Shown here piece after piece: positions 31,001 through 64,000 of a stretch of DNA of 64,000 bases. Position 1 is the stretch's first letter. Each line of letters starts with the position of its first letter. This DNA comes from a virus. The notes below the pieces were generated by a model. That model was given only the letters and a program-made list of their open reading frames with translations, had not been told where the DNA came from and did no database searches. The DNA lies in the IMG/VR virus record IMGVR_UViG_3300008050_000035, positions 1-64,000 of that record; one strand, given 5' to 3'. The position numbers were made by a program, and so were the translations under genes.

Positions 31001-33187
31001 TGCGGTTCCCGCTATTTGGTGTGTAAAACCAAAAGTACCTTTGCTAAACATGTCACTACTAATGTACGCAGCACCATACTTCATGTCTCCCAATCCAGAA
31101 AGTTCTGAAGCAAGCTCACCCAGCCTTTTGTCTTGTCTGTACAGACGGTCAATACCTGCTTGCCCGATATTCTCCATGTTGCCTTTAAAGCTAGCGCTAA
31201 ACATTTTAAGAAAATCCATCTTTCTAATCTGTTGGCCACGAAAATAAATCATGTCTTTCTTGTAACTGATGCCAGTACGATCTAAAGCAATATCAAGAGC
31301 TTCAGTAGCTGGATCCCGAGGTAAGTACTTTCTGCCGGAACCAGTCTCTCCAACATACAAATTCTGAGCCAATTCTTCTGGAGTGAATTTACCATTGCCT
31401 GCAAGAATGCGTGTCAATGTTTCACTAGCCGCATAAGCGTGTTTCTCTGGATTGAGAACAGAGAATTGAATAGGCTTACTTACTCTGTGAGACACTCCAG
31501 TGACCCCCATGCCAGAATCACCATAAGACTTACTTAAATGACCAGCATTAGAAAAATCAACAACCATCATCTTGTTTAAACCACCAGACGCATGAGAACC
31601 CCAACCCTGAGACACTTCACTAATGGCACGGTGTCGAAGCACTCCCGGACTGAGTTTACTCTCTCCAGGGCGAGTAAACTTATTTCGAAGACGATCTAAA
31701 GAAACATCAGAAGCCTGCCCAACACCACCTAGGTAAGCACCCCCAAACGTACGAAGAGAATCAAGAGAGTAGCTACTTCGACCAAGGACTTGCGCTTCAC
31801 GCGCAGTGATAGGAAGCTGGTGTCTGTCGACAGCAAACTTGCCATACGCACTCTGAAGAGCGCTAAAGCCACTTTTCGCTCTAAGGCCTAGTACAGATCT
31901 ACGCTCCTGCCCAAAGCCAGTAACAAGGCGCTTAGCGCCTACAGCACCACCCTCAAAATCACCTCCAGAACCAAGCTGAGCAATAAAACGCATCGCCTCA
32001 CCAGAGTCCATTGCTCCAAAAGTATGCCCAAACACTGCATTCGCACCAAGTGCTATTTGTCGACGTATATGTCTTCCGATATACCCAGAAGTCATAGCTG
32101 CACGATCAACGTGTTGAGTAGCCATGCCCATATTTTCCCTAAACGCCTTCCAGTCAACGCGTCCTTTCGCTGCACGAGAACCAATGTCTTGAATAAGATA
32201 ATCAGAAAAACTAGTCAATGCTCCGCCAGCCCTAAGCTGTCCAACCGTCATGTTTGCAGCATCAAGTCCTTGTTGCCTAACAAGCTGGTGTGCGTTTTGA
32301 ACATTCATGGCATGTTTTGGAGTCGAGTAAAGAGTGTTGAAACTCTGACCACTGCGAAACAATCCATGCTCGTGTAAGGGTACGCTAGCTACCCATTGTC
32401 CACGATTCAAAATTTGTGCTTGCCTAAACTGCCTGCCGCCTTCAGTAAAAGAGGCAACACGCATTTTGTAATCACCTTGAGACAGGTGGGCATTCAGACG
32501 CAAAGCCCTTCGTTCCCAAGGTTTGAGAGCTTCTTTAGCTTGCCTCCTGCTAAGTAAGGTTCCAACATCAATAGAATTGTAAGCAACACCGCCTTTTGGG
32601 ATTGAAAAATTAGGAGACTGAAGCTGACCGCTGATGTTTCTAAATTCACTTAAATTCTCTTCCCATTTTAAAAGAGTCTCGGCAGAACCACTATCAAGAA
32701 GAGATCTAGTAACTTTCTCGGCAAACTCTTCTACAGAGTTTGGACTAGCCTCACTAAGCAAACGGCTAATCTCTCCTTTCAGAGAGCTAACGGCAGAAGC
32801 ATTAAGACCACTAGCAGGATCTTCAAGTGTTACGGAAAGTGTCTGAAGAAGTGCATTGTGTTGCTCTACGGTGCCAATGATTTTGCGTAACTCATCAGAA
32901 TCACCAAGCCCTCTTTTAATTTTATCAACAACTTTGGCTGCACGCTCACTTCTGGCTTGTTGAGACTTTCGAGCTGCAAGGCCTTTGGCCTTGCCAATAG
33001 CCTGAGAAGGCGTAGCTTTAGAAAGAGGGTTGTTTAACGCCTCGTTTCTTTTAAGGTGTCTTTGCCCATGCCAAATACCAACAGCTACAGGGCTTAACCC
33101 TACGGCAGTCTTAAGTAGCGAAACACCACTTTGAACAGTGGTGTCAGCATCTTCGTGAAACTGGTTAAAGCGATCATTAGTAGCCAC
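28064..33187 (-). CDS. Giant virion protein, tape-measure candidate (1707 aa)
   Basis: The start is GTG at 33187 with GGAGAG 8 nt before it; it overlaps the upstream gene by 11 nt. The protein is Gly/Ala/Met/Arg-rich and largely helical, with a mildly hydrophobic segment at the N-terminus (LLKTAVGLSPVAVGIWHG) and a stronger one near the C-terminus (AAPIAMGAAASMFAMG). Two copies of a motif AQxA(F/Y)ExMxQ(R/L)G lie at about residues 760 and 852. Position right before the hub gene and after the tube and chaperone genes is that of a tape-measure protein, which sets tail length and is often ejected. The sequence lacks the long regular coiled coil of classical tape measures, and the 1366 aa gene before it is an equal candidate. 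Confidence 0.5.
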   Translation of the reverse strand: MATNDRFNQFHEDADTTVQSGVSLLKTAVGLSPVAVGIWHGQRHLKRNEALNNPLSKATPSQAIGKAKGLAARKSQQARSERAAKVVDKIKRGLGDSDELRKIIGTVEQHNALLQTLSVTLEDPASGLNASAVSSLKGEISRLLSEASPNSVEEFAEKVTRSLLDSGSAETLLKWEENLSEFRNISGQLQSPNFSIPKGGVAYNSIDVGTLLSRRQAKEALKPWERRALRLNAHLSQGDYKMRVASFTEGGRQFRQAQILNRGQWVASVPLHEHGLFRSGQSFNTLYSTPKHAMNVQNAHQLVRQQGLDAANMTVGQLRAGGALTSFSDYLIQDIGSRAAKGRVDWKAFRENMGMATQHVDRAAMTSGYIGRHIRRQIALGANAVFGHTFGAMDSGEAMRFIAQLGSGGDFEGGAVGAKRLVTGFGQERRSVLGLRAKSGFSALQSAYGKFAVDRHQLPITAREAQVLGRSSYSLDSLRTFGGAYLGGVGQASDVSLDRLRNKFTRPGESKLSPGVLRHRAISEVSQGWGSHASGGLNKMMVVDFSNAGHLSKSYGDSGMGVTGVSHRVSKPIQFSVLNPEKHAYAASETLTRILAGNGKFTPEELAQNLYVGETGSGRKYLPRDPATEALDIALDRTGISYKKDMIYFRGQQIRKMDFLKMFSASFKGNMENIGQAGIDRLYRQDKRLGELASELSGLGDMKYGAAYISSDMFSKGTFGFTHQIAGTAKMFGVNHKTLRARAQALSDAGGGMLGKQGHQIYAQAAFELMQQRGVGAKNIGMMLAGVYHGAEGGGVGKGGIDQAKLQKMVRGLGAGSADALAAMRRGLVSFIDTVQVGPSAGDWGAARVGLERRFAQTAYERMLQLGMSKEQSVDAVAGIYTNKIGFGRHYALAEQMMGMGRSVTGHRNAVDAFTERGATRLKYSQFGDAFTEGGRSTGQMTDWLRTQKQGAILDFSDAPAHIGRAVQDVFGSSSMYMPGMEAYEAGSGTSVRIAGGQSKEVSAAYGQLVSGLQKRLADHATTGGDPLRESLKTWRSNALDLMSTSIANLARGKVRGSSSPRVSSYNLTTGAGFTSRQQGRVANQLFRSTGGTAVFADATMMLSELHGQKAGGTSSKQLAESARMFFTGMEHKAGNKRLGSGLIRVSGRHPLISAGNVFMSQVFRDLREVSALQGTDAFFNKIKGAQLQVFSGLDAAGDQQFKQMRGEEFMKSIFRKDIKSFADIAAATGDKGNDANRKFFRTLIDNIDQFTGGQGGGRMIVPRVLTAAGDIGLAPQAFMDMDGDTALSMMLDPKTSAIVRRRLAAQVGDPARLAMELQSRVLKGGVGTAIKKGMVSYGDTLGGGLDDKIVQDMMKEMGISQQTGAMDVRLRGLHEALGNYGANIDQIRAHRDILGALEENVLLKAKKLKVFVPLAEEVGGAVERLMSSPSQDSAEELRNVLKNKIFHNQNTSFKVGDIVGEGRTGQWAAEITKGRTLSVNIDNFVDASLKVANSAVAAGTNMPGTAKAMSHAFSAGPNMFIQALAGSNMETAGMAAFSDSPQHGMAGFSKGLGQITNLIDKLDKRMAAPIAMGAAASMFAMGAIGTPGYAATPLSAPGEYTSPQVSNAIAQGSLFKNSGGHIAPESLGRPSSDYGMIDRPINSGGAYMSRPSSYQIKGVLPNGFGLNGAMKYVGAMTGGNAAGSVRINDTRRPITRSYTDRLMGEY

Positions 33188-36100
33188 TTAAGTATCTCTC
33201 CATTGCTGTGCCAATATCAATGGCACGGTTATCATTGTAATCAACTTGTACAGTACTCATCATACCTTTCCATGGTGCTACATGCCAACTGCCACGACTT
33301 CCTGCAGTGCCAGTCATTTGAGTAAGTCCTCTACTCATAGCAGAACCTATCGGAACCCCAGGTTTGTTTTGTTGTAAGAAATCTGTACTCCCGTCTAGCA
33401 TAGGTTGTTGCATGCTTTTCTTGAGCTGTTTTTCCCATAAGCCGTAATCCGACAGCTCTGCACCCATCCTGTCGACATATCTAACCTGAATATCACTCAT
33501 GTCGACATCCTCATGCCAACCCACCCAATCTTCGGAAGGCATTGGCCCTTCTAGAGATCCAGCAACACGTGCTTCTTGAGCAGCTAAATGCGAATCGCTA
33601 ATAGCGTTATCAGCACCAGCCCAAAGATTCTCATCTCCAGAATCCATTCGGCTCCAAATTGCCTTGTAAAGGTGTTGTTGGTCGGCGGGAACCATCTCCA
33701 TAATACGATGACGATCTTTACCAGAAGCATGAGCGAAAGCATTGAAGAATTTTCTTTCACTATCAGGAAGTGTCCAGTACATACTTAGAGAGCTCCCTTG
33801 AGGATTCACACCAGCACGAGTATTGGCTTGAGCCCAGCGGTACTGTGCTGCTGCACGAGAATCTCCAGAAAGTTCTGCCTGTTCGCGCAACCTTGCCCAT
33901 TTTAGAAATTCTAATTTATCAAAGTACTCGTTTGCACTATCAGCCTTGTGTCTCCACAGAGGCTTACCTTCCCATCCCATCATATTTAAAGTGCTGTTCA
34001 TGGCTGGTCGAAACCAATCGCGCCATGGCTTATCCCAAAAAGCCATAGGTGTACCATATAGACGCTCGTACTCATACTGCTCAATAGCATCTCTGTCACT
34101 CATGAGTTTTTGCACGGGACGAAAGCCCATAGGTACGAGATATTCTCCTGGTGCTGTTACCCGACGTGCTGCTCGCTGTCCCGCAGCCCAAGCAGCTCGG
34201 GTTAATCCCGAGCCTGGTAGCCTGATAGCATTCTTGTGTAGTCTGTCATCACTAAATCCACTAACTTGCTCTGAGTGATTGCGATCCACTGCCTCCATGA
34301 AAGCAATTTGCTTCTCATTGTAAGCTCCCTCCATGCGCTGCTTGTACACAGCTTGCTTGTAAAGAGTGTATTCCTGAGAAAGTGGCGCTACGTCACTAAG
34401 GATGGCAAATCTAAATAAGGCGGGGTAAGCCTCTGGATCTACCCCTCGTAGTTCAGGGTGTAAGCCTGCATAGCCTGCACCTGGCAAGCGTCCTTCTCCC
34501 CATTCTATTGAGCGATATGGGTCTCCCCATTTGAACTTGTCTGGCAGCCAGCTAGGCATATTGTTGGCAAGCGGATTGCGACGATCTATCTCGCTACGCA
34601 TTCTAGGAAAGACGCGACGCAAAAATTCATTTGAAAACAATGCACCACCCATGTTCATCTCCCAGAAACGAACACGGCTGCTAGTCATCAAACTAGCATC
34701 TGCCAGCTGTTGGCTGTCAGCCGCCCAAACATCATCTCCAGTTAAGCCCTGCTGGATAACATTCTTAGCCCAGCCAGTCATACCTTCCAGCTCTCTGAAT
34801 TGGTAAGACAAAAAACTCAATTGATTGGTAGCACTGTAAGGACTTGTCGGCACACCGTGATGAGCTCCCAAAGCTGTGGCTGGCTCAAAGCGCGACCCTT
34901 TGTACACATTTCCATACTCAAGCCCACCATCTTGTCCAGGACGAATCCATTCGCCTGCATGCATAACTCTTGCAGGCTTGATTAGCCTGCCAATAGTACT
35001 TGAGAGCACACCGCCAATTATTGGCACGTCTGAAAACGCAGCATTACTTATGGGATAAGGTCTATCCCAATACTGCTGTGTTTCTAATTCATAAGTAAAG
35101 TTTTGACGAATCCACTTGCCTAGGGGACTTATCTTGTCCTCATCTGCACCCCAAACACCTTTCTCGCGCACTCTGTTCATCATGAGAGAATACTGATGTG
35201 GTCTGTAATAGTCTGTTTCACCACCCTCGAATGGAGTGCCACCTGCTTCCCACCACCTACTTGATTTAACGGCAACCATTTTTCTGCCAGAATAGATGTC
35301 ACGCAGATCGTCTGCAGTTTCCTTACTGCCTAACAGGCCACCAGTGAGAAGCTGATGTGTGCCAAAAATAGCAGCTCCGACACTTGCCCACTTGCCCAGC
35401 CGGCCTGCTGAACTGAATCCCATATCGCCAATTCGACGACGCAAAGCTTTGTCTGCACCGACATCTGCACCAAAGAAACTATAGTAGGCTTGAGTACCAA
35501 AACCTTTGGCTTCCTTCTTAAGGCGAGCAACCAGGTTGGGGGTGTCTCCATACTTGGCGCTAATGTCGCGCAACCTACGCTCTAGCGCTTCGTTCATAGG
35601 GTTGCCTTGCCTGTAGGTGTCCAGCTGCTCTTCAGCCCTGTAGAATGCAGTATTGAGGTCTTGCATCATCTCTAAACGCTTGTTGTCATACACACTGGTG
35701 CGCAAGTGTTTCATCAAATCGCGTCGTTGCCGAAACCCTTCATGAGGTAGGTTGTTAGCCAAACCGCTAACATTTTTATAATAGAGATCTCGCACATTGC
35801 TGTTTGCCAATTGTACCTGACGGACTTTGTCTGCCTGTAAATCTAATTTCAAGCGCCTAGGTCCAGCAGACTCAAGCATCGTCTGGGCTAGACTCATATT
35901 GCGACCAGGCAAACTAACACTGGTGGCCATAATGCCACCAGTTGCTAACAGCGCACCAGTTTCCCAATCGGTACTTCCAGGAGCGAAACCCTCAAGGGTC
36001 CGACGCAAATAATTGAAAGGGTTCAGTGCATTGGCACGAGCGACATCCATGCTGACAGCACCGGTTGCAACCCCTTGCATAACGCCTTGATCAAACCCAG

Positions 36101-37277
36101 GAAGAATCATTTGGCCAAAGAAACTTGCAGCTGCAGCAAACATAGCCGTGCGCGGCTGCTTGGCCATCTTGCCAACAGCATACCCGACACCGGCGCTTAC
36201 CGCCCCACTAGCAAGAATTTGCCCAGGCATTCCATATTGTCTTCGTACCCAATCTGCTTGGCTTGCCGCAAGTACAGTACTTCCAGCAAGTGCAGCCCTG
36301 CCTCCAAAACGCATAAACATTGAGGAAGCTGGACCTGGACGAACGCCAGGAGATACACCCAAAATACTTTTGAATGCCTTTCCACCAGACTCACCAAGGA
36401 ACTGATCTGCCACACCTGAGACAAGACGATTAAATCTACCCATTTCAAATGCAGCCACACCTCGAATCATCGTAGTACGTCGAGCCAAATCACTTAAGTC
36501 TTTAAGGTCTCCAACCGAACTAGGAACTGGCATGAAGCTAGCTTGTTTTCTAACCCACTTTCCAGCAGCATCTTGCTTTGAGCCGAGAAGTACTTCTTTT
36601 TCATTGAAAGCATCATCAGCATACATATCTGCAGCAGCAAACATGCCAGTAGCAATTCTATTGACACCGCGCTCTTTAGTGAGTGGGTTGACAACTTCAT
36701 GACTCATAGCCTGCAAAGATATGCTGTCACTTAATAATTTTCTATTGCCTCCAAGCCAATGCCCAGTACTTTCGTCTAGTCTTCCACCTAGCACGCTGTA
36801 CAAGTTCCCACTGGAGCCACGTGGCTCAAACACCATGGCGTCAGCCAAGTGCTGAGAAGCTCCAAGCATGCCTTCAGTGATTCCAGCTGCTGTCATGCCG
36901 GCACGATCAAGCCCAGTGGCGTACTTAAGCCAATTGTAAGTACTACTAGACTCAAGAGCTTCACGTCCCCAGACAGTAACGCCTTCCGTGCTGCCAGAAC
37001 CAACCTTATACCCCATGGATGTAAATGGACTTAAGATCTCAGGAACACGAAAAGTATTTAAAATTTGGAACGGGCTCAGATTCCCGCTAAGCCGAGAACG
37101 AGCCGCAATGTAGTCAATTGGACGCCGGCCATTCGACATAGGCTTAGTAGCTGCATACATAGCACCCGCACCAGCTGCAACCGCAACCGCAAGCTTTGTC
37201 ATCTGACTGCCAGCACTATTGTAAGGTTCTGTGGAGTCACCATTCCAGGTGACCCCACCATAAGACTTAAGGGCCAT
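33177..37277 (-). CDS. Giant virion protein, tape-measure candidate (1366 aa)
   Basis: ATG 37277 overlaps the upstream stop (TAATG). It follows the two chaperone-like genes directly, the canonical tape-measure position. The protein has many hydrophobic Gly/Ala-rich stretches (LAVAVAAGAGAMYAATK at 30-46, ILASGAVSAGVGYAVGK, MFAAAASFFGQMILPG), which would allow membrane insertion, and a C-terminal 600 residues that are Trp/Tyr/Arg-rich. Its end (NRAIDIGTAMERYLSGY) resembles in character the end of the following gene (RRPITRSYTDRLMGEY). By the rule of about 1.5 angstrom per helical residue it could span a tail of roughly 200 nm, but the irregular composition makes this uncertain. It may act with the 1707 aa protein. 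Confidence 0.5.
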   Translation of the reverse strand: MALKSYGGVTWNGDSTEPYNSAGSQMTKLAVAVAAGAGAMYAATKPMSNGRRPIDYIAARSRLSGNLSPFQILNTFRVPEILSPFTSMGYKVGSGSTEGVTVWGREALESSSTYNWLKYATGLDRAGMTAAGITEGMLGASQHLADAMVFEPRGSSGNLYSVLGGRLDESTGHWLGGNRKLLSDSISLQAMSHEVVNPLTKERGVNRIATGMFAAADMYADDAFNEKEVLLGSKQDAAGKWVRKQASFMPVPSSVGDLKDLSDLARRTTMIRGVAAFEMGRFNRLVSGVADQFLGESGGKAFKSILGVSPGVRPGPASSMFMRFGGRAALAGSTVLAASQADWVRRQYGMPGQILASGAVSAGVGYAVGKMAKQPRTAMFAAAASFFGQMILPGFDQGVMQGVATGAVSMDVARANALNPFNYLRRTLEGFAPGSTDWETGALLATGGIMATSVSLPGRNMSLAQTMLESAGPRRLKLDLQADKVRQVQLANSNVRDLYYKNVSGLANNLPHEGFRQRRDLMKHLRTSVYDNKRLEMMQDLNTAFYRAEEQLDTYRQGNPMNEALERRLRDISAKYGDTPNLVARLKKEAKGFGTQAYYSFFGADVGADKALRRRIGDMGFSSAGRLGKWASVGAAIFGTHQLLTGGLLGSKETADDLRDIYSGRKMVAVKSSRWWEAGGTPFEGGETDYYRPHQYSLMMNRVREKGVWGADEDKISPLGKWIRQNFTYELETQQYWDRPYPISNAAFSDVPIIGGVLSSTIGRLIKPARVMHAGEWIRPGQDGGLEYGNVYKGSRFEPATALGAHHGVPTSPYSATNQLSFLSYQFRELEGMTGWAKNVIQQGLTGDDVWAADSQQLADASLMTSSRVRFWEMNMGGALFSNEFLRRVFPRMRSEIDRRNPLANNMPSWLPDKFKWGDPYRSIEWGEGRLPGAGYAGLHPELRGVDPEAYPALFRFAILSDVAPLSQEYTLYKQAVYKQRMEGAYNEKQIAFMEAVDRNHSEQVSGFSDDRLHKNAIRLPGSGLTRAAWAAGQRAARRVTAPGEYLVPMGFRPVQKLMSDRDAIEQYEYERLYGTPMAFWDKPWRDWFRPAMNSTLNMMGWEGKPLWRHKADSANEYFDKLEFLKWARLREQAELSGDSRAAAQYRWAQANTRAGVNPQGSSLSMYWTLPDSERKFFNAFAHASGKDRHRIMEMVPADQQHLYKAIWSRMDSGDENLWAGADNAISDSHLAAQEARVAGSLEGPMPSEDWVGWHEDVDMSDIQVRYVDRMGAELSDYGLWEKQLKKSMQQPMLDGSTDFLQQNKPGVPIGSAMSRGLTQMTGTAGSRGSWHVAPWKGMMSTVQVDYNDNRAIDIGTAMERYLSGY

Positions 37278-38005: not shown

Positions 38006-38014
38006 ACAACCTCC

Positions 38015-38746: not shown

Positions 38747-38758
38747 ATTGTTTGCTCC

Positions 38759-40218: not shown

Positions 40219-40232
40219 ATAGTGATCTCCTT

Positions 40233-40273
40233 AAAAAGAAAGTGGCCAGGCCTCCCCGATGAGACCTGACCAC
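40233..40273 (-). terminator. Intrinsic terminator after the first tube gene
   Basis: Read on the minus strand, GTGGTCAGGTCTC pairs with GAGGCCTGGCCAC to give a 13-bp GC-rich stem (two G-T wobbles) with a 6-nt loop, followed at once by TTTCTTTTT. This is the classical layout of a Rho-independent terminator. It sits 30 nt after the first tube gene and before the second, so it should lower expression of everything further left relative to sheath and main tube. Confidence 0.85.
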
Positions 40274-40303
40274 AGTATAGCAGGTAGGTGCTATATTGAG
40301 CTA

Positions 40304-40978
40304 TCAAGTACCATCGGCACTTGAGAAAGCATTACTAAGGTGACCGTCAGAACCAATGTCCCAGCTGCCCATTCTCTGCCAAGGCAGAATAGTACGACAG
40401 ACATAAGTCATTTGGTTCTCGATTACCATATCATCAATACTGAAACCGGAACCTTCGTTCAGAATCTCAACGCCATAAATGCGCATTTGAGCAGCATTTC
40501 CATACTCGTTTGCTGCCACAATCACCACATCGAATGGAGGTAGTTGATCAACATACCAGGCTTGATTAGCCGTGTATGAAGCAGAAACATCACTTGCGCT
40601 AAACGCAGTGGAGTCTAGTTCGTCAAGATTTAAATCAGTGATATTGTCATTCAAAGCGCCGCCATTGGCGACGTTGCTAACGCTTGGGTAGATCTCATCA
40701 TTATCTAGAATGACGCGCATAGCCGAAAACGGTCCATCCGTATCAAAAAGAATATGTTGGTCTAGCATGAGGGTGATTATGGTACCTGCGATACCGCGCT
40801 TGCCACGGGAAAACGAGAGAGGGTCAACTCGGCCCATCACGTAGATGGGCGCCTTCTCACGCTGAACAGCGTAAGAAATTGCCTGAAGCTGACCTATCGA
40901 CACGCCTCCGATAACTGCACGGATATCCACTCCAGAAAAACTGGTGTAGGTACGACTAAGCTCTAGTGATGTAGCCAT
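40304..40978 (-). CDS. Tail tube protein 1, probable main tube
   Basis: A 224 aa protein, ATG 40978 with AGGAG upstream. It directly follows the sheath gene, the usual place of the major tube protein, and is followed by a terminator, which fits high expression. Core strands include GQLQAISYAVQREKAPIYV, GKRGIAGTIITLMLDQ, and RIYGVEILNEGSGFSIDD before MTYVCRTILPWQ. The same layout occurs in two further copies. In contractile tails such proteins stack as hexameric rings inside the sheath and form the DNA channel. Confidence 0.72.
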   Translation of the reverse strand: MATSLELSRTYTSFSGVDIRAVIGGVSIGQLQAISYAVQREKAPIYVMGRVDPLSFSRGKRGIAGTIITLMLDQHILFDTDGPFSAMRVILDNDEIYPSVSNVANGGALNDNITDLNLDELDSTAFSASDVSASYTANQAWYVDQLPPFDVVIVAANEYGNAAQMRIYGVEILNEGSGFSIDDMVIENQMTYVCRTILPWQRMGSWDIGSDGHLSNAFSSADGT

Positions 40979-40997
40979 TATTGTCTCCTAATTGGAA

Positions 40998-43385
40998 TCA
41001 GAGTTCGCTCTCATCCGCCGCGAGAGAAGTCTCTACGGTAATGGATTCGATGCTGAACGGTGGAACCATGCGCAGCTTGATAGTCAAGCGACCCATGATT
41101 CTATCTTCTCTGGTGTACTCAATCCTACTAGTAGCACCTTGATGCATGCCAGCTGTACGTTCCGAAACAATAAACCCATCAATCGCCGCCTGAAGAGAAG
41201 CAAGATTTTGCGCACTGAATGCCTTGCCAATATAAGGCCTTGCAAGCGCACGAATGCCAGTAAGCATTCGGTTTACAGATCGAATAGTACTAAGACGAGT
41301 ATAGTCAGAGTCTGGATGAGCAACGTTCTTCGCAGTAGTGAAGATCAGAGTCCCAGAAGTATCACGACGAATGCCAATGATACGTACTTGTGCCAGATCA
41401 TTAATCTGGGTGCTGTGAACACGAGTAGGTTTCTGAACTTTTACAACCGTACCGTTCAAGCCAATTGGCTCTTCGTTTTCCGGCATGCCAGCAACTTTAC
41501 CCAAAAAGGTAGCTGCGACAGAACCACGGTAAGAAGTTCCACCATCATATCCGTTAGTCAAAATAGGCCAGTCGTAAGTAACAAAGAGGTGACGACCGAT
41601 ATCAACTACCGCTCCACCACTATCTTCGCGCTCATCAGCATCATTGATGCCATATGGCCAGTCGTTGCCATTCGGAAGGCTCGCGCCTTCAGTAAGGATG
41701 AAACCACCATATGCGTAACCGTCAGTAGTGTTGCCATTGTCTACCTGACCAGAACGATAACCATCACTAGTTACGCTCTCGCCAGAAATTAGGCGATGAC
41801 CTAAAACACCAGAACCATTCTCTGAAGGGCTGTCAATGTAGACATCTGTGCCGTCATCAGTAAATTCAGGAAGAACGCCAATCCAGTTCGCAATCTTTGC
41901 ACGGGAATAGCCACTTGATGGCTCCTTAAAAGAAATTGCGCTGATGATTTGTGCCCAGTTGGTGCTAGCCACATGACAGAAAGTTGCAAGCTGATGTCCA
42001 AAGTTATCTTCACGAAGTTCAGAATCTTCACCTGCGGTAAATGCGGTGCTAACTGCAGTTGGAATACTGTCACCAGTAAGGTCCGCATGAGTCAAAATCG
42101 CACCACCTGTGCCACTAGCAAGATTGGCCTTTGCAACAGTAACGATCGCAGTAGCTGCATCACCACCAGAAGCTAAAAGCAGTGTGCTTGCAAGCACACC
42201 AGAACGAAGAGTTTTCAGTGCTAGCGCTGCATTGATTTGAATGACTGCTTCATCAGTAAACTCAGTACCATCATCGGTAACAAGAATATCAATTCCAAAG
42301 TCAGTCTCAGTAATTGTGACGGTCGGCCCAGCCGAACCAGTAGCATCAATCTCAACAGTTACACCATTGCCACCCTTGCCAGTCTTAAGAGCAGTAACGA
42401 CAAGATCGGTATTCAGGGTTAAAGTTGCCGCAACTGGTGTTGCTGTAACACCAGTGAAGTAATCTTCACAATCAGACATGTAGGTGTAGATGCTGCCTTT
42501 GTGGCGCAATTGCCAAACATAACCAAGTGCATCTTCAGCAGATCCTGCCTCGGGAATACCTTTCCAGTAGTAACCATACTTTTCAGCATCAGTACTACCA
42601 GTGCCCGCATAGGTTTTGTTAGTGTCATCACGAATATTATCATCGTCAACGAATACGTCAGTAGGAATAATCATATCCCCATCGCGATAATCAAGAAGAT
42701 GATAAGTGCTAGAAAGAGCAGCATAGCGTTCAGCGCGACTAACGGTCTGACCATCAGTGCCTTCAGTTGCAACAGCAGTGCTTGCAGTGGCAGTTCCGTC
42801 TTCAGACAGATCACCATCAGTGATTAAGCCGGCAAGATCAGCAGTTTCAACAGAGTCAAGTGTGCTAGCGTTTGTAAGATCATCCTTGTCAAACAAAGTG
42901 AATAGATCGATACCAGAATCTTCAACAGTAACAACACCCTCGTCAAGGACAAGGATTTCGCTAGAGTCATAGACCCAAGCTTCATCAGTTGAATCGTAAA
43001 CCATATATCGATTGTTAGAACTGTCATTCTCAATGAACAGCTTATAGCGACCAAGAATATCGTCATCACGATATTCAGGTGTAATGGTCAGCGTGGCAGA
43101 ATTGGAATCAGTAAAGACCCAAACTCCTTGCTGTCCACCACTGCGAATAATAGCCAGGTTGTCAGCGCCCTGGGCAACAGCCTCGTGTACAAACTTCAGA
43201 ACTTCAGTACTAGTACCAAATTCTGCTTCTGCAAGAGCTACATTGGTAATAGTAAATACTTCGTTGGTGAGACCAGACTCGGCTGGACCAACAACTAAAA
43301 TTCTGGGCTGCGAAGATGCATTCGGAATCTTGAACGCACCGTCGAGGTATGTCGCCTTGACGCCAGGAATACTCTCGTAAGGCAT
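40998..43385 (-). CDS. Tail sheath protein
   Basis: A 795 aa protein, ATG 43385 with AGGAGG upstream. The C-terminal 110 residues have the conserved sheath domain: GIRALARPYIGKAFSAQN, then a helix LQAAIDGFIV and the strand GRLTIKLRMVPPFSIESITV. The N-terminus begins with PGVKATYLDGAF, as sheath proteins often do. Sheath proteins are commonly 400-700 aa; this one is long because of inserted modules. One at about 315-430 (TLTLNTDLVVTALKTGKGGN, then EAVIQINAAL) looks like a beta domain found in many phage structural proteins. The sheath contracts to drive the tube through the envelope. Confidence 0.88.
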   Translation of the reverse strand: MPYESIPGVKATYLDGAFKIPNASSQPRILVVGPAESGLTNEVFTITNVALAEAEFGTSTEVLKFVHEAVAQGADNLAIIRSGGQQGVWVFTDSNSATLTITPEYRDDDILGRYKLFIENDSSNNRYMVYDSTDEAWVYDSSEILVLDEGVVTVEDSGIDLFTLFDKDDLTNASTLDSVETADLAGLITDGDLSEDGTATASTAVATEGTDGQTVSRAERYAALSSTYHLLDYRDGDMIIPTDVFVDDDNIRDDTNKTYAGTGSTDAEKYGYYWKGIPEAGSAEDALGYVWQLRHKGSIYTYMSDCEDYFTGVTATPVAATLTLNTDLVVTALKTGKGGNGVTVEIDATGSAGPTVTITETDFGIDILVTDDGTEFTDEAVIQINAALALKTLRSGVLASTLLLASGGDAATAIVTVAKANLASGTGGAILTHADLTGDSIPTAVSTAFTAGEDSELREDNFGHQLATFCHVASTNWAQIISAISFKEPSSGYSRAKIANWIGVLPEFTDDGTDVYIDSPSENGSGVLGHRLISGESVTSDGYRSGQVDNGNTTDGYAYGGFILTEGASLPNGNDWPYGINDADEREDSGGAVVDIGRHLFVTYDWPILTNGYDGGTSYRGSVAATFLGKVAGMPENEEPIGLNGTVVKVQKPTRVHSTQINDLAQVRIIGIRRDTSGTLIFTTAKNVAHPDSDYTRLSTIRSVNRMLTGIRALARPYIGKAFSAQNLASLQAAIDGFIVSERTAGMHQGATSRIEYTREDRIMGRLTIKLRMVPPFSIESITVETSLAADESEL

Positions 43386-56842: not shown

Positions 56843-57517
56843 TTACCTCGAAAAACTGTTGCCGCGACGGCTATTGAATCCACGCTTGTGCGAGCGTCCA
56901 TTACTTGCAAACATGGCACCGAAGCCAGCACCACCAAGCATTGCTCCGCTACGAAACATGTTGTGACGACCTTCAGTGCTGTGAAAGCCCCTAAGCCCCT
57001 TATGAACAACACCCTTGTGCTTGTTCCAAGCTCGACTCATTGGGCCCCATTGGGCGTTAGCCCCGATCTTGCTATCAATACCAGCATAAACGCTATTGCT
57101 TATGTTCGCACCCTTCCTGCTAAAAGACCTGAAAGCCTTGCCAGCCACCATGCCTCCACCTGCACCCAAAGCAGCACCTTTGAGACGCTGACCTGGGTCA
57201 GCAGTCATGGCGCCAAGCATGCCACCGACAGCAGCGGCAGAACCATACCCCGCACTCCAAGAGGCAGCAGGGTTGACTCCAGATGTTATGCTTGGGGTTG
57301 CAGGCGCACGAGCACTCAACCCCCTAGGTGCTACTGCACTGATCCCTCGTGGAGTTCCAGTAACTCTTGGACGAGAGGGTGCACGAGCCGCTCTTCCGGG
57401 AACTGCTCTCATTCCGTAATCAGGAACACCTGTCCCTCTGGCAGCTTGAGCGCCTCTCATGCCGCGCATGACGCGACCTTCTTTAAGTGCAGCTTTTAAC
57501 ATTGGGTTAATTGCCAT
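56843..57517 (-). CDS. Basic glycine-zipper protein (224 aa)
   Basis: ATG 57517 overlaps the terminase-side stop (TAATG). The first 75 residues are Arg/Pro/Gly/Ala-rich and disordered-looking (GRAARAPSRPRVTGTPRG). At about 90-125 lies a glycine-zipper segment (GSAAAVGGMLGAM, GAALGAGGGMVAGKAF) and a second at about 190-205 (GAMLGGAGFGAMFA). The tail is Arg/Ser-rich (SHKRGFNSRRGNS). Glycine zippers form close helix pairs in membranes and pores; the basic parts could bind DNA. Function is unknown, perhaps an ejected or DNA-coating virion protein. Confidence 0.5.
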   Translation of the reverse strand: MAINPMLKAALKEGRVMRGMRGAQAARGTGVPDYGMRAVPGRAARAPSRPRVTGTPRGISAVAPRGLSARAPATPSITSGVNPAASWSAGYGSAAAVGGMLGAMTADPGQRLKGAALGAGGGMVAGKAFRSFSRKGANISNSVYAGIDSKIGANAQWGPMSRAWNKHKGVVHKGLRGFHSTEGRHNMFRSGAMLGGAGFGAMFASNGRSHKRGFNSRRGNSFSR

Positions 57518-59796
57518 TACTTTCTCCTTCTCCGAATAGAGCGTCGTCTTTCTTTGCGTCTACTCACTACATGGGAGCTCACACTTGAATCTCCCTCGTA
57601 CAAGTGCTCAGTGTCATCACCGTATCCACGATAATCCTTCGCCTTATTCTTAAGCCATTCTCCTACAGAAAAGCCTTTTTTGTCCACTCTGTCTCGACCT
57701 CGTTGCTGTACTCTACCTTTTTGCTGCTGGTTGCGTTTTGCAGCATCAGCAGCAGTCTCACCCTCTCTCATTGTCTGAAGGAGTTCGATAGCTCCTGGAA
57801 AAGTAGTTTGCTGACGTTTAATTAAACCCAGAACTTCAGAACCAGGACTATCTTTACCACGCTCAGACTTGGCAGCACGTTCATCTAAATATTCTCTACT
57901 CATAGCCTTCGGTCGGCTGTGGGCCATGTTCCTTCCACTATAAAGACCATTTTCAAGTTGAATGCCAGCCAGTGCAAGCATTAGTGCATCTAGTCTGTGA
58001 TCGCCAACCCGATCGGACTCAGCCCCATACACCGGCTTGTTGGTAATATGAGACCTTCGCAAAACAACATAATTCAGCATCTGTTTGCGTAAATGGTCCT
58101 CGGTGCTTGGCATCCAAAAGATGCCATCTTCCATAACGCGCACAGCAAACTCAACCAAAAATTCCTTTCCTGTCTTGTGAATCTTTGCGCCGTCAATGGG
58201 ACTGCGCAACTCAACTTTAGAACTAAAGTTAAAAGACACAAGTCTATCTTTAATTTTAGCTGTCTCTACGTCACGGCGAGTAACCTTGGGTTGCATAGCT
58301 ACCTGAGCGCTAAGGACTTTGAGATCTTCAATGATCGTATGCCCATAACCTTCATCAGCATAGATGTAGTCGGGTTTCCATTTGTAATTTAAACGAACAA
58401 CCTCTTCTTTCCATTTCATACTGCTAAATTCACTTGCCTGTACATTCACAATGTCCAAAGCTATGAACCGATGGGTCATTGGATCATACCCAACGACAAC
58501 GAACTCGGTGCCAGCATTTTTGTTCCAGTCAATTCCAATACATTTAAACATCTTGCCGGGATCAAGTACACCAAGTTTCTTTCGCATGTATGCTTCGTCA
58601 ATACAGCGTTTTATATCATAATCTTTCATCGCAGCATAGACATATGATGGTTTGAAAACACCATAGCTGGTATCAACGAACAGAGCCATATACTCTTTAT
58701 TAAAGTCCTCTTTGGAACCCTCTTTCTCATAAAGCTTTTTATTCTTATCCCACTGAGGAAGGACAGTTGAAGGAAGATGATCTTCTTTAAAAGAGTCATC
58801 TTCTAGACACCATTCGTAAAATTTGGCACGCTTACCAATTGGAGTGCTGGTAGCAATAAGCATAACTTCACCGAGCGCATCGGTCAGAAGGATAGGAAGG
58901 ACAACTTTATTCAAAGTCTCTTCCGGAATCATGTCCATTTCATCAAGATAAATAATATTAGCGTTACGCCCACGCATGGTACCACCACCAGAACCATCGG
59001 CTTTGGTGGCAACACCAGAGACGAAGCCGTTAATTACAGCTCCATTATCCATATCCATATGAAAGTACGGGGTCTTAACATAATAAGACCCACCTGACGC
59101 GGTCTTGATTCGTTTACTCAATTCGTAAGCTTCTTTGCGCTTAAGTAGTTTCTCCATCTCGTCAAAAATATTAAGCAGCTGAGACTGAAATGGAGTAACA
59201 ACCATAATCTCTGGACCGGTCATAATCTTCTCGCCAGTCTTTTTATCGGTGCCGCGCTGTACCTCTCGATTGTACGCCAGGTACAGTAGCTTCAATGCAA
59301 TAATAAAAGTTTTACCACTACGACGACCTTCCCTGATGACTAATTTTTCACTAGTGCACCGAAGCTGTTCTTTCTGATATGAACGCAAATTCCATGTAGG
59401 GTCCGCATCGTCAAAACCGAACATCAAGGTCGCCCAAGCAACTGGGTCTATGGTACTTTTAAGCAGCAACTGGGCCCGTTCTGGGTCCATGTTGTTTTCT
59501 ACAATCATTTTTCGCAGAGTGCCAGCACTGCCAGGAGGTAGGCTTTTTGCAATACCTTTGCAGGGCACTTTGAATTCGTTGATAATGTTACCATCATCAT
59601 CTCGTCTTCCTGCGTACTTTATCATTTGTCTTGCTTGGCAGTTGATGCAAGACCTGTGGACATCTGTACGAATTCCATACTTGTTAGATAGCCAGTCTAT
59701 GTCTTGGATATCTAATCGAGCGTCAGGATTTTGATATTCAACCCCATACTCATTTTTAACATAAAGTTTCTTCTTGATTTCAGTTAGATTCGGCAT
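57517..59796 (-). CDS. terL: Large terminase subunit (packaging ATPase and nuclease)
   Basis: A 759 aa protein, ATG 59796; it overlaps the upstream gene by 17 nt. ATPase: Walker A GRRSGKT at 157-163, Walker B IIYLDE at 281-286 and coupling motif ATSTP at 315-319. Nuclease: GIDWNKNAGTEF gives D423, YIYADEGYG gives D481, and GDHRLDAL gives an acidic residue near 620. Residues 47-79 carry HRSCINCQ and a further Cys (VPCK), a possible zinc site. The last 130 residues are not part of the usual fold and end in an Arg-rich run RRKERRRSIRRRRK. This enzyme drives DNA into the prohead through the portal and cuts the concatemer. Confidence 0.9.
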   Translation of the reverse strand: MPNLTEIKKKLYVKNEYGVEYQNPDARLDIQDIDWLSNKYGIRTDVHRSCINCQARQMIKYAGRRDDDGNIINEFKVPCKGIAKSLPPGSAGTLRKMIVENNMDPERAQLLLKSTIDPVAWATLMFGFDDADPTWNLRSYQKEQLRCTSEKLVIREGRRSGKTFIIALKLLYLAYNREVQRGTDKKTGEKIMTGPEIMVVTPFQSQLLNIFDEMEKLLKRKEAYELSKRIKTASGGSYYVKTPYFHMDMDNGAVINGFVSGVATKADGSGGGTMRGRNANIIYLDEMDMIPEETLNKVVLPILLTDALGEVMLIATSTPIGKRAKFYEWCLEDDSFKEDHLPSTVLPQWDKNKKLYEKEGSKEDFNKEYMALFVDTSYGVFKPSYVYAAMKDYDIKRCIDEAYMRKKLGVLDPGKMFKCIGIDWNKNAGTEFVVVGYDPMTHRFIALDIVNVQASEFSSMKWKEEVVRLNYKWKPDYIYADEGYGHTIIEDLKVLSAQVAMQPKVTRRDVETAKIKDRLVSFNFSSKVELRSPIDGAKIHKTGKEFLVEFAVRVMEDGIFWMPSTEDHLRKQMLNYVVLRRSHITNKPVYGAESDRVGDHRLDALMLALAGIQLENGLYSGRNMAHSRPKAMSREYLDERAAKSERGKDSPGSEVLGLIKRQQTTFPGAIELLQTMREGETAADAAKRNQQQKGRVQQRGRDRVDKKGFSVGEWLKNKAKDYRGYGDDTEHLYEGDSSVSSHVVSRRKERRRSIRRRRK

Positions 59797-60521: not shown

Positions 60522-60702
60522 CTTCCACCTCCTTTTCACAAACCGTATGACAAGTGTACTCTATCATTATATTTTTCACAGCTCCGTTTTTAATAGAGTT
60601 TGTTTTGGGTTCTTGTATTACAAGAAGCTGAGAGGGTTTTTGCTCTGTGACCAACTCGTTAAGTTGGTCAAGAAGGAAGATCAACCTGCCTAATCTATTC
60701 AT
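60514..60702 (-). CDS. Small hypothetical protein (62 aa)
   Basis: ATG 60702 overlaps the upstream TGA by 4 nt (ATGA) and the gene ends 8 nt inside the next one, so it fits the coupled gene chain. The N-terminus is a helical LGRLIFLLDQLNELVTEQ stretch, the C-terminus is acidic (EKEVEDE) with two Cys (TCHTVC). No motif known. It is probably real from its fit between neighbours. Confidence 0.55.
   Translation of the reverse strand: MNRLGRLIFLLDQLNELVTEQKPSQLLVIQEPKTNSIKNGAVKNIMIEYTCHTVCEKEVEDE
60525..60534 (-). promoter_or_regulatory. Strong Shine-Dalgarno before the XhlA-like gene
   Basis: AAGGAGGTGG on the minus strand, about 6 nt before ATG 60521, is the most complete SD in this part of the window. 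It shows that 60521 rather than 60539 is the start and that the product is probably well translated. Confidence 0.75.
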
Positions 60703-61601
60703 CTGTACCTACTGTGATAATTTTTACTGGGCATGTGCATAAAACCTGCCTCTTGCCCTAAGGCACTTCGTGCGTTTAAGTGTGATTTGTGCATTGCTTG
60801 CACAGCTCTGGAGCGCATAGTCATCGCATTCTGAGTCATAAAAGCTGCCATGCTACCACTGGTGTCAATACCACGCTGTCGTTGGCGATGCTGATACCCT
60901 TGTCGAAGAATGGCTGTGCTGCCTTTAACAACGGCAGCACTAGCAGCTGCCGTGACTCCAACAGCAGCCATGCCACCTGCAATTAGCGGATTGGTAGCTG
61001 CAAAACGCAAAGGCGCAGCTCCAATAAAACCACCAATAAAAGCACCAGGAGTACCTAAAGCTGCTTGACCAATGGAAGCTCCAATGCCAGCTCCAGCGAA
61101 CCTAGCCATGCCGCCAATTATGCCTGCCCCACCACCAAATGCAATCCTAGCACCAGCAGTTTTTACTCCAGTTTGAGCAATCCTAGACATAAATCCAATG
61201 TTTGCGCTAGGACCACTTGTGCCTAACGCCCCATATGCAAACCGTGCTACAGCACTAGCTGTTGCCACTTCCCAAACCGCTGCATCCTTGGCACCAGTCC
61301 ATCCACCTTCCTGACCGGCCGAGTAAACATTATAAAAACTAAAAGCCCCACCTGCTGCGCTTCCAAGCATGCGTCTTCCCACGCCTTTAGGAAACATCCT
61401 TCGGGCAATATCTGGCATAACTGTTGTAGGAGAAGCATCCAGAAGTGCATTGTACCCGTGCCACCTAACACCATTAGGTAAACCCTTTACAGGCTCAAAA
61501 CCTCCAGCAAGCATACCTCCTGCCTGAGCGTAATTCCGAAACCCACTTGCGTATGGATTGTTCCAGGTCTTTCCGATAGTATTTTTAAGTCCTTCCCACA
61601 T
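60699..61601 (-). CDS. Glycine-zipper membrane-like protein (300 aa)
   Basis: I start it at ATG 61601, 7 nt after AGGA (61609-61612); an in-frame GTG at 61607 lies too close. Residues 140-230 are a run of Gly/Ala-rich hydrophobic segments (IAFGGGAGIIGGMARFAG, GAGIGASIGQAALG, AFIGGFIGAAPLRF, LIAGGMAAVGVTAAAS), typical of glycine zippers that pack as membrane helices. The C-terminal 60 residues are basic and Met/His-rich (MRSRAVQAMHKSHLNARS). It follows the SNase-domain gene and may work with it, for instance as an ejected channel or membrane anchor. No family is recognised. Confidence 0.5.
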   Translation of the reverse strand: MWEGLKNTIGKTWNNPYASGFRNYAQAGGMLAGGFEPVKGLPNGVRWHGYNALLDASPTTVMPDIARRMFPKGVGRRMLGSAAGGAFSFYNVYSAGQEGGWTGAKDAAVWEVATASAVARFAYGALGTSGPSANIGFMSRIAQTGVKTAGARIAFGGGAGIIGGMARFAGAGIGASIGQAALGTPGAFIGGFIGAAPLRFAATNPLIAGGMAAVGVTAAASAAVVKGSTAILRQGYQHRQRQRGIDTSGSMAAFMTQNAMTMRSRAVQAMHKSHLNARSALGQEAGFMHMPSKNYHSRYR

Positions 61602-61603
61602 TC

Positions 61604-64000
61604 TCACATCCTATGGTGGCCAATTGGGCTACTGCTACTTAGAGCCTGTAATGTTTTTCTTTGGTGAAGGGCCATCCGGGCCTTTCTTGCCCTAGAAAGA
61701 GCCTTTCCCGAACCATACTGTTTAAAAGCAGCTGATCGACGTTTGCTGTGAATCTGGTTGCTGGTACCAACAGTGTCAAGAGCCATAACGGCATCAAGAC
61801 GACCGTATCCGTTTCTATGGCTAAGTTTATTACTGTTTTCATTACGTCCTTTTGTTCTGATGAAGCCAGCAAGATCTTGAAGCTGTTCCTGCATATAACT
61901 TGTGCTCGGGGTACTTGCAGCCGACATAATTTGTGGGCCAACATGGTCTGCCCCCACATTGTAACGACTACCTAGATCCGCAGCAAGTGCAGCCGAAGCT
62001 GGTGTAAACTGCCCTGATGTTTGGGCAGCATTCATTGCGCTTACCATCATCATTGTTCCGGCGTTCTTCACAACAGATTCAGGATTGGCCAACTGGTTAA
62101 ATGTCACTCTGTTTCCAGAAGCAGCTGTATGCTCATAAAAACTACGAGCCCATGGCTGGCTCCACATACCCCTGTTAGTCTGATAGGCTCTTGTTTCAGC
62201 TTCTTTTAGCGCAGCATAATTAATACTTGCGTATTGTGCCTTTCCAAAAGGCAAATGGCTAGCTATTCCTCTTTTCACAAGTTCGTAGTTAAGGTTTCGC
62301 CCATCAGCGTAAACAGCACCCAGTGCACGACCATATGTTATTTCGTTTGGGTTGAAGATTAAATCAATATCACTGGCGCCAGCAAGCATAGCTTGGAAAG
62401 CCTGCGTTGCTTGATTGGCAAATGGTTGTGCCGGTCTATCTCCGTGTGCAACTTCCGGAGAGTCAAGGCCAGCCAGTCGGAAACTATAAGACTTATTTAA
62501 ACCAAAGAAATCTTGCAATGCACCTGTGAGCCCACCTCTGCGAATTGTTACAGTATCAGCATCGTCTGCCGTAAGTTTCCAGTTCCCATCTTTAATATTG
62601 ATCTTTTTCAGATCTCCTCTCATGCCGTAATCAGCACCCGCAACTGTTTGTCCACTTTTTACAAAATCATAGCCACCACCAATAAATGGACTCCAGGTAG
62701 GCAGCGAAGGCACCTTGTTTTGATAGTGTTGTGCTCCGTACTGGACACGCAACCACTTCTCTCGCTCGCGGAGCATTTCTTGGTCGATGAAAACTTGCTG
62801 AACCCCAACAGGTCCACGGTATGGTGAACCAAAGTCAGTCATGCTATGGCGTTGCTGTTTCGCAACGGCTCCCTCGGACATTCCCTCGATTTGCTGCCTG
62901 CTAACCCATTCGTCATAACCATAATGCAGAATGGATTCTGGGCGTGCAGGCTGTTGTTGAAACACGCTTGCCGTCGCTCCAATAGCTGACAATGCAGCAG
63001 CAGCGCCTGCAAATACGCCTGCACGCCCTCGTGCGGCCCTAACACCCATCTCCATAAGCTCAAGGCCAACACCAGCCTTCGGTCGCTGCAGGACCTTGCT
63101 TAAGCGTGCACTTGCACCGCCAACTTGAATTTGAGAATACTGGTTGCGCAACTGAGAAAGACGATCGTGTACATATCGATTAAGACCTTGCTCGTCCTGA
63201 GAGTGCTGACTCATGCGTTGCCAAAGCGCATCTAAATCAACCTGGTCGTAACGTCCCTCTGCACGCACGTGCCCAAGGACCTGATCCATTGTACTGTAAT
63301 TTGTACGCGTACTTCTTGTGCGCCAAACCTGAGTAAACTGCCCTTTGGGTGTAAGTTGGCTTTGAGCGAAAGGCAAACCGCCTTGTCGCTGCTGAGTAAA
63401 CCCTTGTTTTAAGATATCCTGCTGAGCGCGTTGCAGTCGTTTCAGAGCCTGCTCTTCCTGCAGGATCGGTGAGTGTTCTTCCAGAGCCTGGAAATACATA
63501 CTGACTTGCCCTAAGACACCATCGCTACCTTCTTTCAAATATCTCTTACCTAGCTCAGTACCCTCTGCTACGTGTTGAAGAGCACTAGTAAGCTTTACCC
63601 CTCTTTCGAGAACATAGCTTTCATGAATAGCTACATCTTCTGCTGCACGGTGAACTTCCCTCATTCCGATACGCTCGGTATTGCCCTCTGCAAGAGCGTG
63701 GAGCCTGTGAGAGATATCTACACCTGTACCAAGGTAGTTTAAGTCCTTCTCTGTGAAGCCAAGTTTCTTTCCGTACGAATGGAGTGCGCGCGTCACATCC
63801 TGAATATCACGAACTGCCGTCTCCCCCGCCTTGGGTTGGTTTTGCAGGTAAGCTTTCCAAACACCAGTCCAATCTCCATTTGCTTGAGCACGAGTGCGTG
63901 CACGAGTAACTTCTGAACCAGTTACGTAGAACGGGTCGGGGCTTTGCGGATTCCATGTCTCTAATCCGGACTTGAACTGCTCAGCAGCTTCGGGACCCAG
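61604..64000 (-). CDS. Virion-type protein with staphylococcal-nuclease domain, 5' end outside window
   Basis: The frame is open to position 64000 (798 visible codons before the stop); a GTG at 63796 is internal, so the true start lies beyond the window. Residues about 473-616 of the visible part (62153-62584) are an SNase domain: DADTV, FRLAGLDSPE, YGRALGAVYADG and NRGMWSQP. By comparison with staphylococcal nuclease, the equivalents of D21, R35, D40, E43 and R87 are all present, so it should cut nucleic acid with calcium. Before it lies a hydrophobic Ala-rich segment (AGVFAGAAAALSAIG). The C-terminus is basic. Possible jobs: DNA processing at packaging, or host DNA degradation after ejection. 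Confidence 0.75.
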   Translation of the reverse strand: MGPEAAEQFKSGLETWNPQSPDPFYVTGSEVTRARTRAQANGDWTGVWKAYLQNQPKAGETAVRDIQDVTRALHSYGKKLGFTEKDLNYLGTGVDISHRLHALAEGNTERIGMREVHRAAEDVAIHESYVLERGVKLTSALQHVAEGTELGKRYLKEGSDGVLGQVSMYFQALEEHSPILQEEQALKRLQRAQQDILKQGFTQQRQGGLPFAQSQLTPKGQFTQVWRTRSTRTNYSTMDQVLGHVRAEGRYDQVDLDALWQRMSQHSQDEQGLNRYVHDRLSQLRNQYSQIQVGGASARLSKVLQRPKAGVGLELMEMGVRAARGRAGVFAGAAAALSAIGATASVFQQQPARPESILHYGYDEWVSRQQIEGMSEGAVAKQQRHSMTDFGSPYRGPVGVQQVFIDQEMLREREKWLRVQYGAQHYQNKVPSLPTWSPFIGGGYDFVKSGQTVAGADYGMRGDLKKINIKDGNWKLTADDADTVTIRRGGLTGALQDFFGLNKSYSFRLAGLDSPEVAHGDRPAQPFANQATQAFQAMLAGASDIDLIFNPNEITYGRALGAVYADGRNLNYELVKRGIASHLPFGKAQYASINYAALKEAETRAYQTNRGMWSQPWARSFYEHTAASGNRVTFNQLANPESVVKNAGTMMMVSAMNAAQTSGQFTPASAALAADLGSRYNVGADHVGPQIMSAASTPSTSYMQEQLQDLAGFIRTKGRNENSNKLSHRNGYGRLDAVMALDTVGTSNQIHSKRRSAAFKQYGSGKALSRARKARMALHQRKTLQALSSSSPIGHHRM
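62153..62584 (-). other. Staphylococcal-nuclease (SNase) domain
   Basis: The nuclease domain described for the gene at 61604-64000. The ordered motifs DADTV, FRLAGLDSPE and YGRALGAVYADG give the metal ligands, catalytic Glu and both Arg positions of the SNase fold. The helix NYELVKRGIA and the final NRGMW also match the family. Confidence 0.8.

Follow-up and report, generated by a model that had tools for sequence, protein, structure and literature searches.

The 64,000-base window analysed here comprises bases 1-64000 of IMG/VR virus record IMGVR_UViG_3300008050_000035, which has 74,973 bases in all. At its high-coordinate end lies a minus-strand gene for a protein that joins an N-terminal exonuclease-like domain to a C-terminal domain of the staphylococcal nuclease (SNase) type. 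Immediately downstream is a gene for a 302-amino-acid (aa) Gly/Ala-rich partner (60699..61607, minus strand), recognized by the position of its homologues in related loci. The large terminase gene terL follows (57517..59796, minus strand; 759 aa; phrog_2, E 2e-31; PF03237 above cut-off) and anchors the conserved block. A preliminary description of the window had given the nuclease open reading frame (ORF) as 61604-64000. This ORF is real but incomplete, being cut by the window end. The ORF listing of the record gives a full gene of 983 aa (61604-64555) with a GTG start, of which the window holds residues 186-983 (61604..64000, minus strand).

A second copy of the 983-aa protein, with the single residue change T123A, is found in a 192,537-base contig. 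terL is divided between both ends of this contig, as in a circularly permuted complete genome. By sequence matches the phage is a myovirus, with a tail sheath (phrog_16991, E 2e-32), a major head protein, a portal (phrog_9232, 7e-39) and the TerL match given above. A scan of genome contigs for a host gave 17 loci; every match is confined to residues 664-856, which is the SNase region, and so we assign no host.

The nuclease gene is a constant neighbour of terL in the loci examined. A scan with a terL profile gave at least 599 pattern matches, from which the best 80 of 367 relatives were kept to yield 79 loci; statements about constancy are confined to this set. Loci with a TerL score over 450 bits define the focal terL clade, and the presence of the nuclease was tested with a family hidden Markov model. 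Near-duplicates are counted among the 68 clade loci, as are the two ends of the 192-kb contig. In 62 of them the nuclease gene lies 805-2118 bases before terL on the same strand, and the remaining six have just 1-902 bases of DNA upstream of terL. The placement upstream of terL that the preliminary description had reported thus extends from the focal record to most of the clade loci examined.

For alignment, copies or fragments of the focal gene (L001, L004 and L060) and a locus with a motif only (L076) were excluded beforehand. Removal of 11 sequences at least 95% identical to others then reduced the set from 62 to 51, and sub-alignments of 50 and 39 rows were picked for coverage. Pfam was run on seven selected family proteins. 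Identity to the focal protein falls as low as 22%. Each active site varies hardly at all across the 43-50 distinct sequences with coverage there. L070, whose TerL identity (38%) is lower than that of any other clade locus, keeps the exonuclease-like part and lacks the SNase domain.

The SNase domain occupies residues 648-800 (62156..62614, minus strand). PF00565 matches residues 692-800 (62156-62482) at E 1e-16 and 61.7 bits, against a cut-off of 21. The top phmmer match in the PDB is thermonuclease 4k5w (E 4e-10), and a profile of 50 family members finds staphylococcal nuclease there at 8e-21. An AlphaFold model of the protein has a mean predicted local distance difference test score (pLDDT) of 80.8, with 10-residue blocks at 84-97 across residues 631-870. 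Model residues 648-799 adopt the SNase OB-fold and align to staphylococcal nuclease 1ii3 with Z 16.3 and 2.8 A over 134 residues at 28% identity.

Catalytic residues of staphylococcal nuclease have clear equivalents in this domain: D665/D667 correspond to D19/D21, R693 to R35, D698 to D40, E701 to E43 and R743 to R87, and T668 is also present. Among members of the 51-sequence alignment with a residue at the position, D665, D667 and T668 are each conserved in 48/48, R693 and D698 in 49/50, E701 in 49/49 and R743 in 50/50. The sole departure at R693 and D698 is L070. Of 150 columns, 12 reach at least 97% conservation, and all six catalytic positions tested are among them (hypergeometric p 6e-8, ignoring shared descent). 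The earlier claim of a SNase domain with equivalents of D21, R35, D40, E43 and R87 is therefore borne out by family match, model fold and residue alignment alike. Sequence and model strongly support the prediction of an active SNase, which would be expected to cleave DNA or RNA in a Ca2+-dependent manner.

The N-terminal domain (residues ~1-350) was missed by the preliminary description because it lies mostly outside the window, which holds only 63506..64000 (minus strand) of it. It carries three motifs, DxET (residues 12-15), N-x-x-F-E (171-175) and HxxxxD (302-307). The last of these, the Exo III motif HRAAED (H302-D307), is at 63635..63652 (minus strand); D12 and E14 of Exo I and E175 of Exo II fall past the window end. 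In the 39-sequence alignment D12, E14, T15, E175, G180, D250, D253, E300, H302 and D307 are invariant. Wider family alignment gives 43/43 for D12, 42/43 for E14 and 47/47 for both H302 and D307, and overall the catalytic residues are kept in 42-47 of 43-47 covering sequences. DEDDh-like residues account for five of the ten columns, out of 333, whose conservation is at least 97% (p 8e-9, ignoring shared descent). At Exo II, where DEDDh enzymes have Asp, 42 of 43 sequences have Glu, and Asp occurs solely in L070. We therefore term the domain DEDDh-like rather than canonical DEDDh, since the Asp is replaced but the acid is retained.

Structural comparison points to a DnaQ/RNase H-like fold. The model of the exonuclease-like domain has a pLDDT of 93.3 and a predicted template modelling score (pTM) of 0.92. 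In VIA it matches DnaQ 8h2f (Z 13.6, 2.9 A over 165), epsilon 1j53 (Z 13.0), RNase T 3ngy (12.5) and TREX1 7tqq (11.4). Judged by their titles, all 50 matches listed (Z 11.3-13.6) are exonucleases of the DnaQ type or polymerases that contain a domain of this type. Foldseek alone is weak here (best E 5e-3). A search of G000 and G001 with PF00929 (RNase_T) gave nothing at E<=0.1; two of the 39 members are listed at E<=0.5, the better at 0.027, which is short of the family cut-off. A second nuclease-like domain with this fold is nonetheless well supported by the model.

A role as a proofreading subunit was considered for this domain. The profile for a DNA polymerase exonuclease subunit, phrog_192, matches 17 of the 39 members (best 1e-7). 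Against proofreading is the fusion of the domain to SNase within a structural block. The 192-kb genome has another weak phrog_192 match (G001 119723-119830, E 0.0017); DNA_pol_A was not found in a search limited to that polymerase family.

Inteins are found in some members. In L070 (L070:3549-7331) one is inserted at the Exo II motif (PF14890, 2.9e-10, above cut-off), and L069 (L069:3340-7188) has an insert near this motif with a sub-threshold intein match (0.0023). The terL ORFs of L064, L069, L071 and L072 are ~1090-1160 codons long, compared with ~750 usually, and are perhaps intein-bearing as well.

Between the two nuclease domains is an Ala/Gly-rich hydrophobic segment (residues 514-532; 62960..63016, minus strand) with a hydropathy peak of 1.77 and low pLDDT. 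Its presence agrees with the preliminary description; as a membrane helix it is borderline only, because hydropathy reaches 1.6 or more in just 20 of 49 family members. Next comes the motif IEGM...TDFGSPYRGP (residues 556-582; 62810..62890, minus strand), in which D574, F575, S577, P578 and Y579 are conserved in 49/49. Kindred TDFGS-type motifs occur in large tail-module proteins of two relatives (G005 and G006) and in a 308-aa protein of L076. The latter (L076:5343-6266, plus strand) has two FGSG/FGSP-type motifs on either side of HERVH, which we take to be a metallopeptidase-like motif, and gives no nuclease match.

The nuclease ends in the tail SPIGHHRM (residues 976-983; 61607..61630, minus strand), identified by family comparison. 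A terminal pattern of H, then 0-2 residues, then M is found in 45 of 51 family sequences. Of the 62 loci, 61 have a homologue of the 302-aa partner (E<=1e-3) that starts within 60 bases of the end of the nuclease gene. The exception in this test is L070, yet a 319-codon Gly/Ala-rich ORF occupies the same place. Partner homologues often terminate in a NY[HF]S.YR-type tail, which may dock where SPIGHHRM of the nuclease docks.

Related phages carry the same kinds of nuclease module in other proteins. The record G006 (that of locus L077) encodes an 1836-aa protein consisting of a hydrophobic segment, an IEGL..TDFGSGF motif, a SNase domain with every catalytic residue present, a second such motif and a C-terminal half. 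In a small local set this C-half matches gp035 of the cultured Acinetobacter phage ME3, a 'virion structural protein', at 9e-64. Genes before the carrier match the tail chaperone, tube-position and sheath genes of ME3, directly or via G005, and likewise match tail genes of the focal window. In a small panel the family SNase profile scores the G006 domain at 120-125 bits, staphylococcal nuclease at 77 and the ME3 hub SNase at 32-37. Among the domains compared, the G006 SNase is thus the same module placed in another protein.

Homologous to the C-half of the G006 carrier is that of a 2410-aa protein in G005 (the record of L082). It is preceded by a RecB/Cas4-like domain (phrog_1674, 2e-4; a Thermus phage RecB-family protein, 1e-5), DEDDh-like motifs, a hydrophobic segment, FGS motifs and an intein. 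A 'tape measure' label for these carriers was not adopted, its basis being only that they are the first large gene after chaperone-like genes. The counterpart in the window is a 1366-aa protein (33177..37277, minus strand), also the first large gene past tail-chaperone-like genes. In blastp against a 16-protein set it matches the 1836-aa protein at 6e-89 and ME3 gp035 at 9e-50, and no nuclease was found in it. Adjacent window genes at 37277-43385 match tail genes of G006 and ME3.

In ME3 itself the SNase domain (E 7.9e-17) resides in gp037, a 2329-aa protein annotated as a peptidase with homology to baseplate hub protein. A separate 529-aa ME3 protein is the second fold match in BFVD (E 6e-8), and its length equates it with gp011. 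This gene lies between gp009 and terL (gp013) and has the motifs FDTETTG, RFES and HTALSD. gp009 finds its match (1e-10) in the 255-aa gene that immediately precedes the focal nuclease gene upstream, and gp010, between gp009 and gp011, is annotated as a head completion protein. Fold match, motifs and gene order together link gp011 to the exonuclease-like domain.

Other arrangements also occur. MTATph1 has SNase (2e-9) in a 2235-aa frame annotated as an endolysin, and KLEB27-3 has a match of 0.003, below the Pfam cut-off, in a putative baseplate protein; its 'structural protein' labels are the depositors' wording. G003 has SNase as a stand-alone protein and a DEDDh-like protein ahead of terL. 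The loci L084 (4486-7524) and L086 (4083-7649) encode proteins of 1013 and 1189 aa ahead of terL with a canonical Exo II motif (GHNxNFD), a C-terminal hydrophobic segment and a common tail with IGHxxM; tblastn found no match for them in cultured phages. For MTATph1, no exonuclease is annotated in the 12.6 kb at the record end that adjoins terL if the genome is circular; 'Rnase H' is annotated there, and a 'DNA repair exonuclease' after terL. Plus-strand ORFs of at least 200 aa before terL contain no Exo I/Exo III pair in KLEB27-3 and L076-L083, several of which are short records, and L080, L082 and L085 have no such ORF to search.

Two types of nuclease thus recur on or next to homologues of structural proteins in varied arrangements, and selection for a nuclease activity carried by the particle would best explain this pattern. 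The match scores point to what was apparently more than one capture of SNase in the lineage. We favour the reading that the focal protein is a dual nuclease of the virion module that is built into the particle and acts at entry, and put its probability at roughly one half. The nuclease folds and active-site residues are well supported by sequence and models; that the domains are catalytic, that the protein is in the virion and released at entry, and what it targets are inferred. In this scheme a helical middle would join a 3'-5' exonuclease of DnaQ fold at the N-terminus to an SNase-type endonuclease at the C-terminus. The protein would most likely sit in the head neck or tail, where the Gly/Ala-rich partner probably accompanies it. 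At or just after entry, SNase would cut foreign DNA, whether of the host chromosome, of rivals or at the surface, and the new 3' ends would then be resected by the exonuclease. The preliminary description had proposed a virion protein, either an ejected nuclease attacking host DNA or a factor trimming packaged DNA. The fusions to virion-module proteins in G006, ME3 gp037 and, as described in a published account, phage BtI1 (PMC2147016) lend indirect support to virion association. Both functions are conceivable, and the fusions favour delivery at entry over trimming.

The trimming alternative takes the protein to be a packaging or head-completion nuclease, made late, that would help terminase by clearing branches from the concatemer or trimming its ends and would not be delivered onward. 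Gene order with terL in the clade agrees with this, as do the DEDDh-like proteins ahead of terL in ME3, L084 and L086 and the head completion annotation of ME3 gp010 among these terL-side genes. SNase, in contrast, is a sequence-blind Ca2+ enzyme and ill-suited to precise trimming. The nearest of the SNases compared is part of a tail-module fusion protein in G006, and others are in hub-position proteins, in both cases distant from the packaging genes. We judge a packaging role unlikely; it retains real weight because the place of the nuclease beside terL is fixed. The hub-position and other tail-module fusions put the SNases of relatives in the tail region, which would also suit a nuclease of the tail or neck surface. 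SNase would then act outside the cytoplasm, where Ca2+ is abundant, and cut extracellular, biofilm or competing-phage DNA at the envelope.

The millimolar Ca2+ requirement of SNase fits such a surface site. DnaQ-fold exonucleases, however, normally work with Mg2+ inside cells, so the attached domain is of a type suited to the cell interior, and the focal gene belongs to the terL/head block. Surface action is an unlikely explanation. Quite improbable is a late protein outside the virion that breaks down host DNA for nucleotides. Both domains are of a DNA-degrading type, and some records of SPbeta-group phages label their SNase a chromosome-degrading nuclease, but the focal gene is inside a late structural block and the modules of relatives are fused to homologues of structural proteins.

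Several observations weigh against a particle-borne nuclease acting at entry. In a DNA-filled capsid, SNase loaded with Ca2+ would turn on the genome of the phage itself, and storage in the head therefore calls for inhibition or separation. A neck or tail site escapes this threat and agrees with the fusions, yet the nuclease gene adjoins terL, outside the tail cluster, and segment 514-532 is borderline as a membrane helix. Glu at Exo II could lower exonuclease activity, and the hub-position SNases of MTATph1 and KLEB27-3 have Asn/Gln at the D40 position. For G005, the profile supports the exonuclease link weakly (domain E about 1e-3). The exonuclease profile missed ME3 gp011 by sequence (hhalign probability 8.8%, E 0.004), and Gly/Ala-rich gp012, between gp011 and gp013, was unmatched to the 302-aa partner (E 0.64). 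SNase domains are widespread, occurring in 8 of 14 control genomes, and their capture therefore comes easily. Of the records of 16 relatives, 10, many of which are fragments, have no PF00565 match at E<=0.01, and the matches of three family members in cultured phages covered the SNase part only.

A wider proposal is offered tentatively, as possible rather than probable. A wide lineage of large contractile-tailed phages may bear on its particles exchangeable nuclease 'warheads' (SNase, DnaQ-fold exonuclease and RecB-like) that hop among proteins of the hub, the tail module and the terL side and, once released at entry, destroy the DNA of the host or of rivals. The focal protein would be two warheads made into one core protein. 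If particles deliver active nucleases, host takeover or exclusion of rivals could start ahead of any phage gene expression, and the phage would have to protect its own DNA against its own nuclease cargo.

Three other large proteins of the record deserve mention. At the low-coordinate window end, beyond the baseplate genes, residues 693-758 of a 991-aa protein (1782-4757, minus strand) weakly match phrog_31382, a 3'-5' exonuclease family (E 0.0017). A hub-position protein of 3005 aa (19050-28067, minus strand) has endolysin-type matches (phrog_20474, 5e-47), and no SNase was found in it, in contrast to its counterparts in ME3 and MTATph1. Beyond the window, at record bases 70903-74175 (L002:15904-19176, plus strand; L002 begins at record base 55000), a 1090-aa ORF contains QGDDDGDEVG, which resembles the DxDGD motif of QDE-1/YonO/crAss-type RNA polymerases. 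Neither Pfam nor PHROG has a family matching this ORF at E<=1, and its NCBIfam matches are at 0.08 and 0.11 only.

Comparison with known enzymes shows what is shared and what differs. The SNase part has the fold (Z 16.3) and key residues of the staphylococcal nuclease family (PF00565/thermonuclease). It differs in that the D21 and R35 equivalents are farther apart in the sequence, and in sitting at residues 648-800 of 983, fused to an exonuclease-like domain. With the DnaQ-fold DEDDh exonucleases (epsilon, RNase T, TREX1, ExoI and Cas2-DEDDh) the N-terminal domain shares the predicted fold, DxET at Exo I and HxxxxD at Exo III, and it differs from them by Glu at Exo II and long extra helices. 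A close relative by fold is A0A6J5NQ80 of an uncultured Caudovirales phage, named 'Staphylococcal nuclease (SNase-like), OB-fold' (BFVD Foldseek E 3e-39 over 1329 columns). Its SNase part is already machine-annotated, under a name without exonuclease or virion role; this comparison is by fold and name.

The nearest concept is that of the polyvalent proteins described by Iyer et al. in 2017, which are large phage proteins with several enzymatic domains, presumed to be packaged in the virion and then injected (PMC5512222). The main text of that paper, to which this statement is limited, contains no 'SNase', 'staphylococcal nuclease' or 'DEDD' (PMC5512222). In the focal protein, unlike polyvalent proteins, Pfam gives SNase alone at a meaningful E-value. 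Already known, then, are the SNase by family name and the exonuclease-like domain by fold. A two-nuclease fusion as a constant gene, together with exchange of nuclease modules among virion-module proteins, appears to be new; neither was found in the literature searched, which covered few subscription papers.

The closest precedent for a SNase on a structural protein comes from a 2007 paper on phage 0305phi8-36. There, a baseplate hub homologue of BtI1 carries a SNase domain, and the utility of the BtI1 hub domains is called 'still obscure' (PMC2147016). This homologue and ME3 gp037 resemble the focal case in having SNase on a hub-type protein within the same wider phage lineage (PMC2147016). 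The focal carrier protein is a different one, BtI1 being compared by description only (PMC2147016), and the SNase of ME3 gp037 is more distant from the family, at the 32-37 bits given above against 120-125 for G006. With the clade described here, the hub SNase of BtI1 turns from an oddity into an instance of a recurrent, conserved feature.

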